A stretch of DNA of 44,120 nt from Methanoregulaceae archaeon. GTDB taxonomy: Archaea; Halobacteriota; Methanomicrobia; Methanomicrobiales; Methanospirillaceae. Location: assembly GCA_021371995.1 (NCBI GenBank), contig JAJFVA010000024.1, forward strand, positions 1-44,120. The letters run 5' to 3'. How positions within the stretch are numbered: position 1 is the stretch's first letter; each line of letters starts with the position of its first letter. The notes beneath the pieces are model-generated. The model saw nothing but the letters and a program-made list of their open reading frames with translations, was not told the DNA's origin and did no database searches. Positions 34,040 through 44,118 of this stretch are shown here, piece by piece. The translations under genes and the position numbers were made by a program.

Positions 34040-35152
34040 ATGTACCTCTCACCCTATGATTATTTTTCTGAGATGAGTCCGTATATGTCTCAACTCCTGA
34101 TATCCAGGTCGAATTTTTCCGAGATTCAGTCATTAGCAATGAAATTTCCGGAAAATCTGACCAGAGTGACCGGGGTTGAATGCCACCTCGGCATGAATGC
34201 GCCACATGCAGACTGGGGCTTTGAGATCCTCAATAGAGAAGACTCGAAATTACTTCTGGCACATTTTATCAGGGATGAGATAGCGGCCGGATCCTTTTTT
34301 CAGGGGAGGGCATGGCATAATATCGGGGCCTTTTCAGCGCTCTGGAATGATACCGGTTCGGTACTTTTTGAAAATATCCGGGCAGTGTGGTTCGAATTTG
34401 ACACCACTAATCAACCGGGGATTGTTCCAATACCCTGCGTTTTCCTCGTTCCGGCATATACTTTGAAGGAGGAGTTTCTTTCTTCGAATGAATGGCTACT
34501 AGAAACAGCGATTCCGGTATTGACCGGAGCTGACTGTCCTGGAGAGATAAAAGAAACATTCGTTCGATGTATCGAAAAGCTTCCCTTTGGATCATCGCTG
34601 TTCATCATAGGACTAATGTTTCAACGAAAATCCCGGAAAATCAGGTTATCAATAAAATTCGATGACCCTCTCAATATCCTTCACTATCTCAACGATATTG
34701 GATGGCCGGGTGAAAAAAGGTCCCTCTCATTGCTTATTGATGACATGATTCAATGCAATGTGAACCGTTTTATTCTGGATCTCGATATCGGGGAAAAGAT
34801 AAGCCCGTTGCTCGGTCTTGAGTGTTCATTCTGTCCGACAAACTACCACAAAGAGCATAAATGGAGCGACTTACTCCATAAGCTTATCGAAAAGGGCTTG
34901 ATTTCCCACGGTGAATGCGATGCCGTACTTTCCTATCCGGGTTCTGATTTCAGTCCCTGCCCCTCCTGGATTGGGATTGATAATCCCCGGGATACAGCGC
35001 AAATCCGGTCTCCTGTATTAATCCGTTACATTTCCCACCTCAAATTTGTTCACAATCCCTCGGAACCATTGGCAGTCAAAGCGTACATCGGGATTCGGCA
35101 GATGGATCCTGAAGTGGAAGTATGTAATGATCCTTTACTGGTCAGGACCTGA
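34040..35152 (+). CDS. Unknown protein next to a terpene-cyclase-like gene
   Basis: 370 residues, no signal peptide or membrane helix. I do not recognise the family. Noticeable blocks: GVECHLGMNAPHADWGFEI near 49, VWFEFDTTNQPGIVPIPCVF near 116, a middle stretch KIRLSIKFDDPLNILHYLND, FILDLDIGEKISPLLGLECS, and a C-terminal ISHLKFVHNPSEPLAVKAYI. The repeated beta-strand-like pattern suggests an enzyme or binding domain with internal duplication. More AT-rich than the genes before it; upstream bases (33980-34039) are a run of A/T with TATA-like sequence and no Shine-Dalgarno, so possibly leaderless. Paired with the genes at 35333 and 35937. Confidence 0.75.
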   Translation: MYLSPYDYFSEMSPYMSQLLISRSNFSEIQSLAMKFPENLTRVTGVECHLGMNAPHADWGFEILNREDSKLLLAHFIRDEIAAGSFFQGRAWHNIGAFSALWNDTGSVLFENIRAVWFEFDTTNQPGIVPIPCVFLVPAYTLKEEFLSSNEWLLETAIPVLTGADCPGEIKETFVRCIEKLPFGSSLFIIGLMFQRKSRKIRLSIKFDDPLNILHYLNDIGWPGEKRSLSLLIDDMIQCNVNRFILDLDIGEKISPLLGLECSFCPTNYHKEHKWSDLLHKLIEKGLISHGECDAVLSYPGSDFSPCPSWIGIDNPRDTAQIRSPVLIRYISHLKFVHNPSEPLAVKAYIGIRQMDPEVEVCNDPLLVRT

Positions 35153-35332
35153 ACTACGTAAAATCCATTGCCCGTGTACCGATATATTCGTTTCAGAAAA
35201 CAGGTAATCCTGTTCCTTTCATGCTTTTTCCGGGCATTCTTTCCGGAAGACCGAGATCTCGTTCTTTAAAAAAAGTAGAGGCATGGTTTTCTTATATGAT
35301 CACGGGGATACTTTCATCGGGATACAGTGATC

Positions 35333-35755
35333 ATGGCGGAAATAAAATGTGAAATATTCAAACTCCCGAAAATTACCGATTACCGGGGGAATATCACCTT
35401 CATTGAAGGACAAAGACATATTCCATTTATGATTAAAAGGGTGTATTATCTCTATGATGTTCCCGGGGGAGAAGCCCGGGGAGGTCATGCCCACCGCCAG
35501 CTTGAGCAGTTTATCATATCAGCGAGCGGAAGTTTCGATGTCATCACCCATGATGGGAGTGAGCAGACCAGATTTCATCTCAACCGACCTTACTACGGCC
35601 TCTATATTCCTTCTATGACCTGGCGTGAGCTTGAAAATTTTTCTTCAGGTTCGGTATGTTTAGTCCTGGCATCAGAATACTTTGACCAGGCCGATTATAT
35701 ACGTGATTTTGATGAATTTGTTGAAGAAGCCCGTCCAGGGAGAACCAGGGTGTAA
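35333..35755 (+). CDS. fdtA: dTDP-4-keto-6-deoxyhexose 3,4-ketoisomerase
   Basis: 140-residue cupin of the FdtA/QdtA/WxcM type: moves the keto group of dTDP-4-keto-6-deoxyglucose from C4 to C3 before amination. Hallmarks: KRVYYLYDVPGGEARGGHAH, with the catalytic histidines in GGHAHRQL, LEQFIISASGSFDVITHDG, GLYIPSMTWRELENFSSG, and a DYIRDFDEF end. The ATG at 35333 is preferred; a GTG at 35327 is possible. FdtA (galacto) and QdtA (gluco) products cannot be told apart by eye. A decayed second copy lies at 41242. Confidence 0.9.
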   Translation: MAEIKCEIFKLPKITDYRGNITFIEGQRHIPFMIKRVYYLYDVPGGEARGGHAHRQLEQFIISASGSFDVITHDGSEQTRFHLNRPYYGLYIPSMTWRELENFSSGSVCLVLASEYFDQADYIRDFDEFVEEARPGRTRV

Positions 35756-35936
35756 ATAACAACAAAATAATTGCCTTTGTAATATCAGGAGTTTCTCACT
35801 ATAAACAACGACCCCTGATATATCAGAAGGTCGGAAGATGGAAATCCAGGTAAAATGTGGATTCATAACTATGGGATTCACTCGTCTCCGAACACAGGTG
35901 GTTTAATCATTTTTTATCACCCATAATCATGCAGAC

Positions 35937-36902
35937 ATGGACATGGATTATCACTCCCGGTTATTGTCGTGTATTCAGAGGTCCCTTACCTATCTTTCCG
36001 ACAGCCAGCTTGAATATGGTGAATTCCGCACATATATTTCCAAAGATCCTGAGTTGGAGGTCTGCTGGTTTGATAGTTCTCCTTTTGTAACATCCCAGGT
36101 TCTTTATTCACTCTCCTTCTTTGATAACCAAATTAACAAAAAAATGAGAGAGAAGGGAATAAATTTTTTAAAAGATGAGATGAACGAAAAGGGATTATGG
36201 CAGTACTGGACGAAAAGGCATCACAGTAAAATGATTCCTGATATTGATGATACATGCTGTGCCTCCTTCGTTGTAATGAAAGCCTTTCCGGATATCCCTT
36301 CTCTTAACACCAGCATAATTTTGGAGAACAGGACGAAAGAAGGTCTATTTAAAACATGGATACGTGACCCGTCTTACGAACGAAATGATATCGATAGCGT
36401 GGTTAATGCCAATGTTTTATTTTACCTTGGCGAGAGGGAAGAGACATCTGCTGCATGCAAATTTATAATTCAATGTTTAATGACGGACATGGAGCAGGGC
36501 ACCTATAAATATTATGTAAATAAGCTTTCTCTTTATTATGCCGTGTCCCGTGCATACTTCAATGGAATAAATTCATTTGGTATTTTAACGCCGGCCCTGA
36601 TTGATAAAATCATTCGATTGCAGAAAGAGGACGGCTCTTTTGGAAATGAACTTTTGACCGGACTTGCCCTCTGTGTCCTTCTAAATACTGGATTTCAGGG
36701 AGAAGCGGTTATGGAGCAAGCAATTTATTACCTCCTGTCACAGCAAAATATTGATGGTTCCTTCCGGAGGATTGCGTTCTACCAATGGCCTGAAACTCCT
36801 TCAGAAATACTATACTGGTTTGGCTCGGAAGAATTGACCACGTCAATCTGTCTGGAAGCTCTTGCCCGGTATTCTGAAAAGGTTGCTAGGGCTTCTGATT
36901 GA
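35937..36902 (+). CDS. Terpene-cyclase/prenyltransferase-like alpha-toroid protein with DxDDT motif
   Basis: 321 residues with repeating helical hairpins and QW-like motifs: KDEMNEKGLWQYW, IIRLQKEDGSFGNELLTGLA and YLLSQQNIDGSFRRIAF. This is the alpha/alpha-barrel fold of squalene-hopene cyclases and protein prenyltransferase beta subunits. DIDDT at 102-106 matches the DxDDT acid motif of class II terpene cyclases, where the middle Asp protonates the prenyl chain. The protein is about half the usual cyclase size, a single toroid, and no prenyl-diphosphate-binding domain is seen. It could be a small cyclase or a non-catalytic relative. The start may be 35937 or 35943. Confidence 0.78.
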   Translation: MDMDYHSRLLSCIQRSLTYLSDSQLEYGEFRTYISKDPELEVCWFDSSPFVTSQVLYSLSFFDNQINKKMREKGINFLKDEMNEKGLWQYWTKRHHSKMIPDIDDTCCASFVVMKAFPDIPSLNTSIILENRTKEGLFKTWIRDPSYERNDIDSVVNANVLFYLGEREETSAACKFIIQCLMTDMEQGTYKYYVNKLSLYYAVSRAYFNGINSFGILTPALIDKIIRLQKEDGSFGNELLTGLALCVLLNTGFQGEAVMEQAIYYLLSQQNIDGSFRRIAFYQWPETPSEILYWFGSEELTTSICLEALARYSEKVARASD

Positions 36903-36953
36903 CACTGGTCTTCTTTGGCTACATTAATCCTAGGGTACGGGACTCTAGATCTG

Positions 36954-39053
36954 CTACCTTACAATTTTTAAAGAATAGCAATTATCCGGCTGGTAATAAC
37001 CCGAACGGTTATTAACAATGATTTTGAGAGAGAATTTATGTTCTCCCACAGGTATCATATTTGAGGGAATAATTGCCAAAAATCCTGAATATTCAAGTGC
37101 ATCATTGCCGAAATGCCTGGCCACATCGGTTCTTCTTAGAGAATAGTACGTCTGAAAAACTTGACCATTACTAAAAACAATTTCTACGGTATCTGCAGGT
37201 GTGCCTGAAAGGTAATCGATAGCCCATCCTACAATTATTACCTCCTGATCCTCTGATATTATTATACCATGAGAGTAAGTCGGTGGGTCCAGTCCGTTAA
37301 TCCGATCAACACTAAATGCAGTTATTCCTGATTTTTTATTGAGGATATGAGGCTGGGCAGGTAATCCATTCGTCCTCAGGTGGGAGCCTGTCGCATCCTC
37401 AGCATGGCTATAAAAAGAGATTATTGCTTTATGGACCTCCTCTATCGGAACAACATAGTTTTGCTGGTATTCATAGACGTTGTCAGAGGTTATGGCCGGG
37501 CCAGAAACAACTATTGTATCTTGCCCGAGGATATCACTTACGAGAGAGTCAAATGGAAATTTTTGACATAAGAATAAGAGTTTTACGGTTTGTGGTGCAA
37601 AGATTATATTTGTCATCCCTGCACCGTGGGGACCGGCAATAATTTCTGCACCTGCAAAGAGCTCCAGTTGCTCGTGGAATGTGATCTTTTCAGGGGCTAC
37701 GATCTGAAATCCATGTCTCCTGAAAAGATTCTCAATTTCAGTCTCATTCAGTAGCACCCGGTAGTGTGCCGTTTTGCGGGTCACATATATTTTTTTTCCT
37801 CCTTCAGAGTTCCGTATCCTTTCATTTACTTTGAATCTGTTGCGCAAAAAGAAAAGTGCACGGGGGGATATTCCAACATCCGTGGACTTACTAATCTCTC
37901 CCTTTTTCACATTTTTTGCAACAAATGATAAATTCGAGGGTATCACTAATCTTCTGACAAAATATCTCTTACCATATTCAACCGGTATAATCGCACGGTT
38001 AGATTTGTTACAATACCTCAATGCTTCAATCAGATTTGGATGTAATCCCTCATCAATGATCAGGGGAAAATCCCTGTATTCAGGAAATTGGTCGATTGCC
38101 CAGAAACGCGATAAATAATCAACTAACCAGTGATAATAATTATTACTACCGGGGCCCGAGAGGAGAATACCTTCAATAATGTCTTCTCCCCAACTTTTTT
38201 GGAAGTCACACTGGAGAGCGGATCTGTAATTGCCAGTGAAGATATGTTCATTCTGATCGAAATTGAACCGATCCCACTCTTCGTGGAGATATTCATCCCA
38301 CAGTACCACATTCTTTTCGATAAGAACTTGTGTGTGACCTCCGGTGATAACAGCGTCGTGGATTTCTGCAATATATGCTTCGGGAATAAATGCCTCGCCA
38401 AGTATGGCAGGTACATCGCTCAGACATGAATCCCGTGAAGCGGTAATAGCTCTTGAGGAGGGCCCTTCCAGATGATGGAAAGGCAGATCGTTCTCCCTGC
38501 ACCATGACTTCACACTCGACACAGTGCAAATCGAAGGAATTTTATCCGAAATATTGTTACCAAGAACTGCTTGATCCATTCGGAAATATTCGTTCGCTTT
38601 CTCAAGGTTTCCCTCGTTGAGTGCATCCAGACAAAGCTTTGCATACTGTCTCTCCTGATCTCGTGTAACCAATACTTCAGGAACAGATGCACAGATACCG
38701 GGAGAAATATCCTCAAACCAGACAGACTCTTGCTGGATCAAGGTAATTATGAGAGAATATTTTCCCTCTTTTTTGGGTGATTCCAGGAACATCTTTTCTG
38801 TTGAAACTTCCCCGGGGGAAAGGCGCCGGACAAGAGGTGTCCGCTCACCGTTGAAGATAAAAAATGTCCCGGAGGCATCCAACCAGTGGTAAGAAATGTA
38901 TACGGGAAACGGCGGAAGAGAGTCGATTTCCGATGTACTTCCATTTTCAATGACTATAGGGATTTTCACCTTTTCCCCTGTCTGAAGTCGAAGGCTCCCA
39001 TGCGGACAGGTGAGTGAAATCCCTTTCAGATGCTCGGGTTTGACCCGATCCAT
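36954..39053 (-). CDS. GT61 (DUF563) family glycosyltransferase with flanking beta domains
   Basis: 699 residues. The central glycosyltransferase domain (about 215-560) has the two family marks NNYYHWLVDYLSRFW (His308) and GPHGAGMTNIIFAP (His476), plus YVTRKTAHYRVLLNETE. In front lies an Ig-like domain (about 10-130, GEKVKIPIVIENGS) resembling those in polysaccharide-export proteins, then a helical segment. The C-terminus (about 590-699) is another beta-sandwich (IIVGWAIDYLSGTPADTVEI). Opposite in strand to its neighbours except the acetyltransferase 74 bases upstream, with which it may be co-transcribed. It probably transfers a sugar in surface-glycan assembly; donor unknown. Confidence 0.85.
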   Translation of the reverse strand: MDRVKPEHLKGISLTCPHGSLRLQTGEKVKIPIVIENGSTSEIDSLPPFPVYISYHWLDASGTFFIFNGERTPLVRRLSPGEVSTEKMFLESPKKEGKYSLIITLIQQESVWFEDISPGICASVPEVLVTRDQERQYAKLCLDALNEGNLEKANEYFRMDQAVLGNNISDKIPSICTVSSVKSWCRENDLPFHHLEGPSSRAITASRDSCLSDVPAILGEAFIPEAYIAEIHDAVITGGHTQVLIEKNVVLWDEYLHEEWDRFNFDQNEHIFTGNYRSALQCDFQKSWGEDIIEGILLSGPGSNNYYHWLVDYLSRFWAIDQFPEYRDFPLIIDEGLHPNLIEALRYCNKSNRAIIPVEYGKRYFVRRLVIPSNLSFVAKNVKKGEISKSTDVGISPRALFFLRNRFKVNERIRNSEGGKKIYVTRKTAHYRVLLNETEIENLFRRHGFQIVAPEKITFHEQLELFAGAEIIAGPHGAGMTNIIFAPQTVKLLFLCQKFPFDSLVSDILGQDTIVVSGPAITSDNVYEYQQNYVVPIEEVHKAIISFYSHAEDATGSHLRTNGLPAQPHILNKKSGITAFSVDRINGLDPPTYSHGIIISEDQEVIIVGWAIDYLSGTPADTVEIVFSNGQVFQTYYSLRRTDVARHFGNDALEYSGFLAIIPSNMIPVGEHKFSLKIIVNNRSGYYQPDNCYSLKIVR

Positions 39054-39127
39054 TCTATGAACCCCATGATGACAAATCTCCTGACATTGTTTAATCCAGA
39101 ACCCATCTGTCTATACGGATCATCTGG

Positions 39128-39721
39128 TTATCGTTTCATTTCCTTTGGTAGCTCGCGTATCCTCGCAGGTGAGCCCATTGCGAGGACCCCTGGTGGCACA
39201 TCTCTAGTGACGACAGAACCAGCAGCAACCGCAGCCCCCTTCCCTATGGTTATGCCCGGGAGTACGATGGCAACTGCTCCGATAACTGCGTTTTCCTCGA
39301 TTACCGGTCCTCGTAGTTCAGATTTCCGGTCCGGCGGATACCGATCATTGAGCAGGGTTGCCTTTGGCCCAATAAAAGCGCCATCACGAATCGTTGTGTA
39401 CGCACCGATACCAGTCATTGACTGGAGGGTAACATTATTTCCAATACTGCAGTTACCCTCAATAGCAACACCGTTGCCAACAACGGTATTGTCTCCAATT
39501 CTTGTTTTCTCACGGATTATGATGTTATGTCCGGACCGGAAGTTGTCCCCGATAACAACATCACAATATATGACTGCGCCGGATCTGATTATCGCGTTCC
39601 TGCCAATCACTGTTCCGGGATAATCCTGCTTATCAATACAGTCCAGTGAAGGAAATCCAAGAGATACAGGCTCAAAAATTTTTGCCCCTTCTCCAATTGA
39701 ATTTTTCCCGTATTCGATCAT
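39128..39721 (-). CDS. Hexapeptide-repeat sugar N-acetyltransferase (FdtC/WxcM-N type)
   Basis: 197 residues of left-handed beta-helix repeats (IGRNAIIRSGAVIYCDVVIG, IGDNTVVGNGVAIEG, IGNNVTLQ) ending in GAAVAAGSVVTRDVPPGVLA and GSPARI. A strong AAGGTGAG ribosome-binding site lies 6 bases before the ATG. Close to fdtA and an FdtB-type aminotransferase, so it most likely acetylates the 3-amino group of the dTDP-sugar; this is inference from neighbours. A decayed copy of its first 43 codons is found at 41406-41540. Confidence 0.85.
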   Translation of the reverse strand: MIEYGKNSIGEGAKIFEPVSLGFPSLDCIDKQDYPGTVIGRNAIIRSGAVIYCDVVIGDNFRSGHNIIIREKTRIGDNTVVGNGVAIEGNCSIGNNVTLQSMTGIGAYTTIRDGAFIGPKATLLNDRYPPDRKSELRGPVIEENAVIGAVAIVLPGITIGKGAAVAAGSVVTRDVPPGVLAMGSPARIRELPKEMKR

Positions 39722-40107
39722 TATGCTCTCACCTTTTTCCCCAAGTAAGATCGTTTAGCTTCGACATGCAATATAATACTACACAATGACTAAAAATCAA
39801 GTTATGCACGTTATTTTGGCACTTCCTGTTGTATCGGGGGGTCAATTCCGAATTCTGATTCGCATATGCTCCCACCAATAGCCATCAGAATTGTTCCGGG
39901 GATACTATGCTGGAAAAATACCAATCGAAAAATCACTGAACTTCGTCCCTTTTTTCACAATAATTAAGAGCCGGCACATGATACACTGACTATCCACTGG
40001 AAAATTTGTGCCTTTTATTTCCTAGTTAGGGATAAACGATGTCCGGCATGAAGAATGCAACAATTAATGCGATTTCCCCCCAATCTTGTGATCAGAAGTA
40101 AATCCTT
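39722..40107. other. Intergenic stretch between divergent genes
   Basis: 386 AT-rich bases separating the acetyltransferase and an aminotransferase gene transcribed away from it. It should hold both promoters. No open frame of interest, repeat or RNA structure was recognised. Confidence 0.5.
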
Positions 40108-41223
40108 ATGGAAAAGATACCCGTTTCCCGGCCATCCATCGGAAAGGAAGAACTTACGGCAATCGATTCAGTTTTTAAAACCGGCTGGCTTGGCATGGGA
40201 GAGAAGGTAATGAAATTTGAAGAAGATCTCTGCCGTTATCTTCAGTCGAGCCATGTAATTTGCACGAATTCCTGTACCGCCGCGTTGCATGTTGCTCTCT
40301 CCACGTTGAACCTCAAGAAAAATGAAGAAGTCATTGTCCCGTCTTTTACCTATATAGCGACAATACAGGCGATACGAGCTGCAGGCGGTACACCGGTATT
40401 CTGTGATATCAGATCGGATGACCTGAATATGGATCCTGAAGACGCTGAATGTAAAGTGACCAATAAAACGCGAGCGATTTTACCGGTTCATTACAGGGGT
40501 TTTCCGTGTGATCTTGATGAAATCCAACGGATAGCGAACAATAACAATCTTCTTGTCGTGGAAGATGCGGCGCATGCCTTCGGTTCATCGTATAAAGGGA
40601 AAAAAATCGGATCTTTTAACCATTTAACCTGCTTCAGTTTCGACCCGATAAAAAACATCACCTGTGGGACGGGGGGGGCGATTGCGTTTCAGGATGATTC
40701 TTTGATTGATCTCATTTCACAGCGAAGATATCTGGGTATTGACAAGGATCCATGGACTAGGCATCAGAATGAGGAGGGTTGGTTCTATGATGTAGTCGGG
40801 GATGGATACCGGTATCATATGAGTGATATTAATGCCGCAATCGGTCTGGTCCAGCTATCAAGGTTCAATTCGATGAATGAGAGGAAGAGAGAAGTCGCGA
40901 TGAGATATGATGAGGCATTCGGCGAGATTTCCGGTATTCAGCTGTTGCGAAACAATGACTACCAGGATATTGGTCTGTTTCTCTATACGCTGCTCATCAA
41001 AAAAAACCGAAATAAACTGATTGATCACCTTCATCGCCAAGGAATCGGCAGCAGTATTCACCATATCCCTGTCCATCAGTTCTCTCTCTATCGAACCAAT
41101 ACGTGGCATCTGCCGGTGACTGAACGTATTTATAATCAGGTACTGAGTCTGCCACTCTTTGCGGATATAACCAATGAACAGGTGGAACGGGTTATCCGGG
41201 TCGTGAAAGAGGCATTACAATAA
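40108..41223 (+). CDS. DegT/DnrJ/EryC1/StrS aminotransferase
   Basis: 371-residue PLP-dependent sugar aminotransferase. The PLP lysine is Lys182 in FSFDPIKNITCGTGGA; VEDAAHAFGSSYKGKKIG precedes it; the N-terminal RPSIGKEELTAIDSVFKTGW and ICTNSCTAALHVAL are family marks. The pattern is closer to the ArnB/PseC side of the family (C4 amination) than to FdtB. Its sugar is probably a second amino sugar in this glycan. The region downstream is a gene graveyard. Confidence 0.88.
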   Translation: MEKIPVSRPSIGKEELTAIDSVFKTGWLGMGEKVMKFEEDLCRYLQSSHVICTNSCTAALHVALSTLNLKKNEEVIVPSFTYIATIQAIRAAGGTPVFCDIRSDDLNMDPEDAECKVTNKTRAILPVHYRGFPCDLDEIQRIANNNNLLVVEDAAHAFGSSYKGKKIGSFNHLTCFSFDPIKNITCGTGGAIAFQDDSLIDLISQRRYLGIDKDPWTRHQNEEGWFYDVVGDGYRYHMSDINAAIGLVQLSRFNSMNERKREVAMRYDEAFGEISGIQLLRNNDYQDIGLFLYTLLIKKNRNKLIDHLHRQGIGSSIHHIPVHQFSLYRTNTWHLPVTERIYNQVLSLPLFADITNEQVERVIRVVKEALQ

Positions 41224-41241
41224 GTTTATGCATCTACCCTT

Positions 41242-41392
41242 CATTATCTCCTGTTTGGCCTCTATATTCCTCCTATGTCTTAGCTCAAAGTGAAATTTTT
41301 CCTTGTTCAGGGGGTCTGGTTTTTACATCATAGTTAGATCCGAATGAAAATTTCCTTGATTTCGGTCAATTTATCGAGGAATTCACTAATCA
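41242..41392 (+). pseudogene. Decayed second 3,4-ketoisomerase (fdtA) fragment
   Basis: Bases 41254-41280 read F-G-L-Y-I-P-P-M-S then TAG, against Y-G-L-Y-I-P-S-M-T-W in the intact gene at 35333: the stop falls on the Trp codon. The following LKVKFF lines up with RELENF. After a frameshift near 41330-41345, N-F-L-D-F-G-Q-F-I-E-E lines up with Y-I-R-D-F-D-E-F-V-E-E at the intact C-terminus. DNA identity with 35600-35660 is also visible. Only the last third of the gene remains. Confidence 0.7.
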
Positions 41393-41405
41393 GACAAATA
41401 CACTG

Positions 41406-41540
41406 GAACACGTTCTTGCTAATAATTTTTCCGAAATAATCGTCATTATCAATACAATCCAAAAAAGGGACCACTGGAACAACCAGTTCAAAAATTTTTT
41501 CTCCTAACGCAGGCTAGATTTTTCCTATGTCCGATATGAT
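41406..41540 (-). pseudogene. Decayed 5' end of a second hexapeptide acetyltransferase
   Basis: On the minus strand 41504-41412 reads GEKIFELVVPVVPFL, then DCIDNDDYFGKIISKN. The intact gene at 39128-39721 has GAKIFEPVSLGFPSL, then DCIDKQDYPGTVIGRN. The homology extends upstream to its start region (ISDIGKI, stop, PALGEK against MIEYGKNSIGEGAK) with the start codon changed to ATC and one TAG. It ends at about 41406, next to the fdtA remnant. The remaining 41541-41779 shows an unrecognised open stretch (to about 41708, plus) and nothing else. Confidence 0.75.
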
Positions 41541-41779
41541 AATATCGCATCGTTTCTGGTACATAATCGTCTTGGATTCGGATTCATAATATTAGTACTG
41601 CACAATGAAAACACCAATAGTTCCCTGATCATCCAAAACGGAGAATCCGAAATGGTAAGGCATTCCCATGGAAAAACAGACGAAACGCTTATTGGTCTTA
41701 TAAAATGAAGGTACTTCAACATATTGATTCAAATTCGGGAAGACATATGAATCAGCCTTATTCATACAGGTAGTTACGG

Positions 41780-42871
41780 ATGATATCCTTTATTGACCTG
41801 AAAAAAGAGAGTCAGGAGATCAGTGAAGAGATTAGAGCTGCATTCCGGTGCGTTCAGGAGAGGGGATGGTATGTTCTTGGCGATGAACTCCTGGCTTTTG
41901 AGAAGGATTATGCACAGTATACTGGCACTCAGTTTTGTATCGGGGTTAATTCAGGTTCTGATGCACTCGTCCTCGCCCTCAAAGCTATCGGTATCAGCCC
42001 GGGAGATGAAGTAATACTTCCATCACATACATTCGTTGCAACTGCTGATGCTGTTGTGAGAAATGGGGCAATACCGGTATTTGCTGATATCGATCCGGAG
42101 ACCTACTGTATTGATCCCAATGCAGTCGCATCGATGGTTACACCCAGGACAAAGGCAATAATCCCTGTACACCTCTACGGTCATCCCGCCGACATGGACC
42201 CTCTTATCAAAATCGCAGACGAACACAATATCCACCTTATCGAAGATGCATGCCAGGCTCATGGGTCAGAATACCGATCAAGAAAAGCAGGTAGCATGGG
42301 GATAATCGGGTGTTTCAGCTTCTACCCTGGAAAAAATCTTGGAGCGTATGGTGATGCTGGCTGCATTGTCACCAGCGACAAAAAGATAGATGAAAAGATC
42401 CGCATGGAGAGAAACTACGGCCAGAAAACAAAATATCAGCATACCTGTATTGGTATGAACAGCCGAATGGACGAGATCCAGGCTGCAGTTCTCCGTGTGA
42501 AACTGAAATACCTGGACAGATGGAACGAGAAAAGGAGGCGTTTTGCTTCACTCTATGATGACTTGTTAGCCGGGTGCAGCGTGATCAGACCCATTGAGAG
42601 GGAGTACGCACGACATGTGTATCACCTGTATGTAATAAGATCAAAGAAACGGGATATTCTCAATTCCTATCTTAAAAAGAAGGGCATTGAGACGGGAATA
42701 CATTATCCGATCCCTGTTCATCAGCAGAAGGCGTACCGCGGAAGAGGTTACTATAAAGACCTTAAAGTAACAGAGTCGGTTTCGGGCGAGGTCCTCTCCC
42801 TCCCCCTTCACCCATGGATGGATGATGAAGAAGTCCGGTATATCGCACAGATGATAAAAAAATGCCTCTGA
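41780..42871 (+). CDS. fdtB: dTDP-3-amino-3,6-dideoxyhexose aminotransferase
   Basis: 363-residue DegT-family PLP enzyme closest to FdtB/QdtB/TylB: starts MISFIDLKKESQEI, then GRGWYVLG-like ERGWYVLGDELLAFE, NSGSDALVLAL, PVHLYGHPADMD and FSFYPGKNLGAYGDAG, with the PLP lysine at 185. It should aminate the C3 keto sugar made by FdtA, using glutamate. The end overlaps the glycosyltransferase gene by 10 bases. The assignment rests on sequence pattern plus the fdtA and acetyltransferase neighbours. Confidence 0.87.
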   Translation: MISFIDLKKESQEISEEIRAAFRCVQERGWYVLGDELLAFEKDYAQYTGTQFCIGVNSGSDALVLALKAIGISPGDEVILPSHTFVATADAVVRNGAIPVFADIDPETYCIDPNAVASMVTPRTKAIIPVHLYGHPADMDPLIKIADEHNIHLIEDACQAHGSEYRSRKAGSMGIIGCFSFYPGKNLGAYGDAGCIVTSDKKIDEKIRMERNYGQKTKYQHTCIGMNSRMDEIQAAVLRVKLKYLDRWNEKRRRFASLYDDLLAGCSVIRPIEREYARHVYHLYVIRSKKRDILNSYLKKKGIETGIHYPIPVHQQKAYRGRGYYKDLKVTESVSGEVLSLPLHPWMDDEEVRYIAQMIKKCL

Positions 42872-44118
42872 TCAGTGCTCTCATGCCCTCCTATAATCAC
42901 GCAGCGTATATTGGAGAGGCAATTGCCAGTGTTCTTTCCCAGTCGGTCCGGGATATTGAGCTCATCATCATCGATGACGCATCTACCGATGGATCTGCTC
43001 GGATAATCGATGACTGGCGCCGAAAAGACGAAAGGATCACGGTGGTCATTCATCAGGTCAATCAGGGGATCGCCCGGACGATCAACGAAGGTTGCCGAAT
43101 TGCAAAGGGAAAGTACATCGCATTCATCGCTTCTGATGATGTCTGGATTCCTGATAAACTGGAAAAACAACTCCAGGTCCTTCGTGGCGATGAAAATCTG
43201 ATCGTCTGGTCGGAGGGCCTCATTATCGAAGAAAATGGATCCCTTACAGGAGAGACTTTTTCCCGTTATCATCATGCCGAAAATAAAAAGAAGACGGGCA
43301 ATATTTTTGATGAACTCCTTACAGGCAACTTCATTTTCGGATCCAGCATGATCTTCAAACGGGAGAACATCGCAACAATCCAATTTAATGAAGATCTCAA
43401 ATATCTGAATGATTTTCAGTTTAATGTCGACCTTGCGAATTTATACCACTATGCGTACATCGAAGAGCCCCTGGCACAATACCGTATCCATCGAAGGAAT
43501 ACCATTGCTGCGGATTTTGAGGGTCATTATCATGATTATCCGATCCTGGGGGGATATTTTCTCGAGCGATATGGCGATGTTATCAAAAACAGCATAAAAG
43601 TCAAGATATTCCTTGCGTCGGTTGAACATGTGAAAAAGATAGTCAGCATAAGGGAAGAGAAGATCGGGGTGATCAAAGAATACGCCGAATCTCTCGAAAA
43701 AGCCATGCAAAGAAGAGATGTCGAGGTTGCGGACCTGACCGGCCAGATGATTACGATAACTGAGCACGCAAAATCTCTCGAGAATACCATTCACCAGAAG
43801 GATGCCGAGATAGACAACGTCACTTCCTATTCACGTTCGCTTGAAGAGGCAGTACATCTGAAGGATGCCGAGATAGACAACGTCACTTCCTATTCACGTT
43901 CGCTTGAAGAGGCATTACACGTGAAGGATGCCGAGCTTAGTACTATCACAAGCTATGCTCGTTCGCTTGAAGACGCAGTACATCAGAGAGACTATACAAT
44001 CGGTGAACTCAACATACAAATCCAGCGGCTCACCGAATATTCACTTTCACTGGAAAATCAGATGAGTGCTATGAAAAGGAGTATTTTTATCTGGCTCAAG
44101 ATGCGGAAACAAGCATAA
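42862..44118 (+). CDS. GT2 family glycosyltransferase with repetitive coiled-coil tail
   Basis: 418 residues. GT-A domain about 1-240: LISALMPSYNHAAYIGEAIA, IIIDDASTDGS (nucleotide-sugar Asp), and FIASDDVWIPDKL (DxD-type site). From about 250 onward the chain is predicted coiled coil, with three near-identical 21-residue repeats at 313-375 (K-D-A-E-I-D-N-V-T-S-Y-S-R-S-L-E-E-A-V-H-L) and diverged units before and after. No membrane helix. It overlaps fdtB, so it may transfer the sugar made by this cluster. The coiled coil probably oligomerises or spaces the enzyme. Confidence 0.9.
   Translation: MPLISALMPSYNHAAYIGEAIASVLSQSVRDIELIIIDDASTDGSARIIDDWRRKDERITVVIHQVNQGIARTINEGCRIAKGKYIAFIASDDVWIPDKLEKQLQVLRGDENLIVWSEGLIIEENGSLTGETFSRYHHAENKKKTGNIFDELLTGNFIFGSSMIFKRENIATIQFNEDLKYLNDFQFNVDLANLYHYAYIEEPLAQYRIHRRNTIAADFEGHYHDYPILGGYFLERYGDVIKNSIKVKIFLASVEHVKKIVSIREEKIGVIKEYAESLEKAMQRRDVEVADLTGQMITITEHAKSLENTIHQKDAEIDNVTSYSRSLEEAVHLKDAEIDNVTSYSRSLEEALHVKDAELSTITSYARSLEDAVHQRDYTIGELNIQIQRLTEYSLSLENQMSAMKRSIFIWLKMRKQA
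43798..43986 (+). repeat. Three tandem 63-bp coding repeats
   Basis: Units at 43798-43860, 43861-43923 and 43924-43986 begin AAGGATGCCGAG. The first two differ at only a few bases near their 3' ends (GCAGTACATCTG versus GCATTACACGTG); the third is more diverged. All stay in frame (21 codons), so copy number can change without breaking the glycosyltransferase. Confidence 0.9.

Follow-up and report, generated by a model that had tools for sequence, protein, structure and literature searches.

Changes of gene order in prokaryotes are usually attributed to gene gain, gene loss, inversion and translocation. A duplicate stage is seldom observed in these organisms because the relics vanish. Most known cases of tandem duplication followed by random loss come from mitochondrial genomes (PMC5122201, PMC5745709). 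The locus described here lies in a window of 44,120 nucleotides (the whole stretch of DNA analysed, from a contig of a Methanoregulaceae archaeon, by its gene content probably a methanogen), and it resembles such systems in its adjacent copies of identical orientation, the retention of each gene once, its decaying relics and its changed gene order. Unlike those systems, it is a prokaryotic sugar cluster of protein genes, its copies are separated by an intact, unrelated aminotransferase gene (at1), and the boundaries are unrecoverable.

The locus also shares three enzyme types with the bacterial O-antigen and S-layer cassettes fdtA-fdtC-fdtB and qdtA-qdtC-qdtB, which serve dTDP-3-acetamido-3,6-dideoxyhexose synthesis (PMC2905691). 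In Salmonella Pomona and E. coli O103 the reported gene order is rmlB-rmlA-fdtA-fdtC-fdtB, and fdtA, fdtB and fdtC are described as constituting one functional unit (PMC2905691). The order ψfdtA-ψac-fdtB at our locus is the fdtA-fdtC-fdtB order of these enteric clusters (PMC2905691). In contrast to those cassettes, the acetyltransferase gene is on the opposite strand here, the working genes are split over two copies, and other genes are intermixed. Ordinary intergenic pseudogene remnants of polysaccharide clusters are likewise truncated, frame-broken pieces among intact sugar genes; the remnants described here differ in forming a complementary set on either side of an apparent duplication. The event is of a known kind and amounts to ordinary pseudogene evolution, but its fossils are unusually complete for so short a region. 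Searches of an open-access library gave no description of this pattern for an archaeal sugar cluster.

The surface-sugar cluster and its intact genes

According to the window's gene list, a surface-sugar cluster begins at ~30.5 kb with rmlA, rmlC, rmlD, rmlB, an orphan ORF and fdtA. It continues with a cyclase-like ORF, a GT61 gene (-), the acetyltransferase gene ac (-), at1 (+), a 556-bp gap, at2/fdtB (+) and a GT2 gene. The features relevant to this study, including three relics (ψ), are as follows.

35327..35755, plus strand: fdtA, intact sugar 3,4-ketoisomerase gene, copy 1 survivor (PF05523 FdtA, E=7.7e-56, above gathering score)
35937..36902, plus strand: cyclase-like ORF, copy 1, between fdtA and ac (weak squalene-hopene cyclase matches, under curated cut-offs)
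36954..39053, minus strand: gene for a GT61-domain protein, copy 1, between fdtA and ac (PF04577, E=1.6e-25)
39128..39721, minus strand: ac, intact hexapeptide acetyltransferase gene, FdtC/QdtC-like, copy 1 survivor (PF00132; top PDB match QdtC 3fs8, E=9.9e-37)
39722..39801, no strand assigned: noncoding DNA preceding the ac start, into which the ac alignment extends with weak homology to 41541-41618
39802..39903, plus strand: ψfdtB, relic of fdtB codons ~43-76, between ac and at1 (70.7% identical to 41908-42007)
40108..41223, plus strand: at1, intact ArnB/PseC-like DegT aminotransferase gene, between both copies (PF01041; top PDB match ArnB)
41231..41382, plus strand: ψfdtA, relic of fdtA from ~codon 84 to ~codon 134, interrupted by several indels and two TAG triplets (70.3% identity, 145 aligned bases)
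41411..41535, minus strand: ψac, relic of the first ~42 codons of ac (67.7% identity, 124 aligned bases; tblastn E=3e-8)
41780..42871, plus strand: fdtB (at2), intact QdtB/FdtB-like aminotransferase gene, copy 2 survivor (PF01041, 421.7 bits)

In the Pfam scan, residues 7-134 of FdtA matched PF05523 with 187.9 bits (gathering cut-off 23). Its PDB matches are QdtA/FdtA-type ketoisomerases, and a genome search found fdtA in single copy in the whole genome. No NCBIfam model reached its own cut-off with ac in the NCBIfam scan, and its nearest solved relative is QdtC. The ac product is predicted to work like a hexapeptide acetyltransferase, with a putative FdtC identity drawn from genomic context. 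The name fdtB was given to at2 on the basis of similarity and context; its best PDB match is 7b0d, deposited as glutamine--scyllo-inositol transaminase, and the second is QdtB 3frk (E=2.5e-115). The surviving trio would jointly make dTDP-3-acetamido-3,6-dideoxyhexose for a surface glycan. The interval between rmlB and fdtA holds a 370-aa ORF (34040-35152) with no Pfam or NCBIfam match, and the ORF at 35937-36902 is a stand-alone 321-aa frame amid sugar genes that weakly resembles, below cut-offs, the C-terminal domains of squalene-hopene cyclases.

Relics of fdtA, ac and fdtB

A first-pass annotation of this DNA had placed fdtA and acetyltransferase fragments in the gap between the two aminotransferase genes, and tblastn, blastn, shuffling and a tile scan all agree with it. 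At the DNA level ψfdtA aligns with fdtA at a score of 80, whereas 300 shuffles averaged 24.5 (sd 3.2) and reached 34 at most. When 200-bp tiles from both strands of the whole 44-kb window were scanned, the top non-self tile for fdtA was 41201(+). The protein-level match of fdtA in the gap is weak (E=0.025 unmasked) because the reading frame is broken by indels and by two TAG triplets, at 41281-41283 and 41331-41333. The score of 80 against the resident fdtA compares with at most 45 against 13 other FdtA genes.

The acetyltransferase relic is evident at the protein level. Codons 12-42 of ac match 41412-41504 (-) with 17 of 31 residues identical (E=3e-8 in a tblastn search of the 556-bp gap), and the match retains E=2.6e-5 when SEG masking is applied and the search is extended to the whole window. 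At the DNA level, blastn gives 70.5% identity over 95 bp (E=2.6e-7), unchanged by DUST masking, and in the tile scan the top non-self tile for ac is 41401(-). ψac scores 83 against the window's ac and no more than 39 against ~30 acetyltransferases from related archaea. The alignment runs past the lost start into noncoding upstream DNA, up to 41618/39801. The joint alignment of ac and this upstream stretch scores 107 (shuffles 29.3±4.5). By itself the noncoding stretch scores 37 against a shuffle mean of 25.4, a value matched or exceeded by 6 of 300 shuffles, so that its homology, taken alone, is only suggestive. No credible Rfam match to a structured RNA was found in the gap.

TAG stops and small shifts had been ascribed to each fragment, and this holds for ψfdtA; in ψac a TAG (41515-41517, minus strand) lies just upstream of codons 12-42, which contain no internal stop and no shift. 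The proposed end-on meeting at about 41392-41412 is about right as to place. Of fdtA the 3' third is represented, and of ac the 5' fifth. The fdtA terminus is thus opposed to an internal position of ac, ~codon 42, with 28 unrelated bases (41383-41410) intervening.

A third relic, missed by the earlier annotation, turned up when the remaining intergenic gaps were searched with the window's own genes. ψfdtB, at 39802-39903, aligns with fdtB at a score of 66 (shuffles 26±3.3, max 40, n=500) and is the best non-self tile for fdtB in the window. Its near-frame reading, SSYARYFGTSCCIGGSIPNSDSHMLPPIAIRIVPG, mirrors KDYAQYTGTQFCIGVNSGSDALVLALKAIGISPG of fdtB. Against at1 it scores 27, and against its other relatives among aminotransferases no more than 33. 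With this relic, each of fdtA, ac and fdtB is present in the window once intact and once broken, which turns the picture into one of complementary loss.

The relics are short (~100-150 bp each), and their identities to the intact twins are near-equal at 70.3% (ψfdtA), 67.7% (ψac) and 70.7% (ψfdtB). This equality is consistent with one event without being proof of it. Differences are spread nearly evenly across codon positions, as would be expected for DNA freed from protein selection. Acetyltransferase copies with stops or in fragments also occur in two other genomes of the same family (G045:C27:17239-17820 and G068:C19:32337-32910), and decay of this gene may thus be recurrent.

Occurrence of the cassette in other genomes

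FdtA was matched in just three of the 232 genomes of the order, and the closest relatives found are bacterial, the Desulfovibrio MAG protein being 71% identical. Since FdtA is rare in the order and its nearest relatives are bacterial, the cassette was probably acquired by an earlier transfer. It had been suggested that strains might keep an intact second cassette; a search of these 232 genomes yielded neither such a cassette nor an intermediate.

In most bacterial loci found, fdtA and fdtB are adjacent. An fdtB relative directly follows fdtA in Desulfovibrio, Caulobacter, Thiodiazotropha and the archaeal genome G133. Both G133 and a second archaeal genome, G027, carry fdtA and fdtB, in settings other than that of the window, and in G027 (L077 13055-14967) the genes between fdtA and fdtB differ from those of the window. 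In Mucilaginibacter (L038 8001-8784) a tandem pair of fdtA-like genes closely precedes further cluster genes; by analogy, this pair could be an intact tandem of the kind able to precede the loss seen here.

Origin of the two copies

Copy 1 (35327-39903) has the structure fdtA(+)…ac(-)-upstream-ψfdtB(+); that of copy 2 (41231-42871) is ψfdtA(+)-ψac(-)-upstream-fdtB(+). The copies are colinear, identically oriented and adjacent, so that no inversion is needed, and the convergent look of the remnants is, from the sequence, the native fdtA/ac arrangement. Of the earlier conclusions, the former presence of a second, now decayed ketoisomerase/acetyltransferase pair stands, both relics matching the resident genes far above chance. 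The view that this pair was rearranged is not supported by the relics, which keep the order and orientation of the intact pair (fdtA +, then ac -).

The reading we favour, at a probability of about 0.7, is a local block duplication after which each gene decayed in one copy. A block of fdtA (+), the acetyltransferase gene (-) and fdtB (+) would have been duplicated locally, head to tail, probably in a single tandem event within this lineage. Redundancy would then have relaxed selection, and every gene would have decayed in one of the two copies. Copy 1 would have retained fdtA and ac and lost fdtB through a start-removing deletion and decay, while copy 2 would have retained fdtB and lost the initial 60% of fdtA together with the greater part of ac. 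This would leave one working set of three enzymes over ~7.5 kb and, at the sites of the lost twins, three fossils. The present distance of 6 kb between fdtA and fdtB would thus exist because the duplicated copies lost complementary genes. The adjacency of fdtA and fdtB in the outgroups and the enteric fdtA-fdtC-fdtB unit argue that this wide split is derived.

Several features of the locus lie outside this reading or limit its resolution. No relics of at1, the cyclase-like ORF, the GT61 gene, GT2 or the 34040 ORF rose above background in the tile scan of the window, and at1 occupies the copy junction. No match was obtained between 39910-40107 and fdtB or GT2, nor between 41619-41779 and at1, the region upstream of at1 or 34040-35936. 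Because copy 2 contains no relic of the cyclase-like ORF and GT61 gene found in copy 1, and at1 has neither twin nor relic, the duplication boundaries are not visible. Either copy 1 and the junction acquired these three genes once the duplication had taken place, or clean deletions removed their twins. The position of at1 between the copies is unexplained by the duplication reading. The idea that at1 and fdtB themselves arose from the duplication was rejected, as they are 34% identical and ψfdtB matches fdtB (66) and not at1 (27).

Cassette replacement, as proposed in the first-pass annotation, implies the remains of a foreign set; it was set aside as first choice, since the relics have their closest matches in the resident genes (83 versus at most 39 for ac, 80 versus at most 45 for fdtA), which favours duplication of the resident block. 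A related and improbable scenario involves two related cassettes of separate acquisition, for example a resident one and one that a related archaeon contributed by recombination; these would have become neighbours before losing complementary genes. The rarity of fdtA in the order and its bacterial relatives are in keeping with a mobile cassette, and a divergence of 30% is high if the duplication was recent. Such divergence is attainable by pseudogene decay alone, however, and no sequence found elsewhere approaches the similarity of the three relics to the resident genes; the weak ac-upstream noncoding homology is also common to both copies.

That several small partial copies, dead on arrival, were inserted independently into two intergenic gaps without any block duplication would accord with the shortness of the relics and with the lack of relics of the cyclase-like, GT61 and at1 genes. 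We consider this very unlikely, as the kept order and orientation, the alignment upstream of ac and the equal divergence of three relics would be unexpected. Similarity by chance or low complexity could be argued from the weak fdtA protein match alone, and its probability is negligible: the DNA scores exceed all 300-500 shuffles, each relic is the window's top tile, and the similarity survives low-complexity masking, the treatment under which the first-pass annotation had allowed that it might disappear.

Under the favoured block duplication, the losses are still legible in each of the two copies of a small sugar cassette, and the step from a compact to a dispersed arrangement can be read. The distance between fdtA and fdtB here should accordingly not be taken to imply separate acquisition. 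It is a doubtful though conceivable extension that ψac and its upstream stretch persisted as a promoter or leader of fdtB, in which case the duplication would have rewired regulation as well as redistributed pathway genes. If this were true, duplication with complementary loss may be a general route for reordering prokaryotic sugar clusters.

The right end of copy 2 has a counterpart in G027. The overlap of fdtB and GT2 (window 42862-42871) is also present in that genome, at 47% and 49% identity, which suggests that this end is the older junction. The C-terminal part of the GT2 gene (43700-44000) carries near-identical, in-frame repeats of ~69 bases (…KDAEIDNVTSYSRSLEEA…), which probably encode a coiled coil of variable length.
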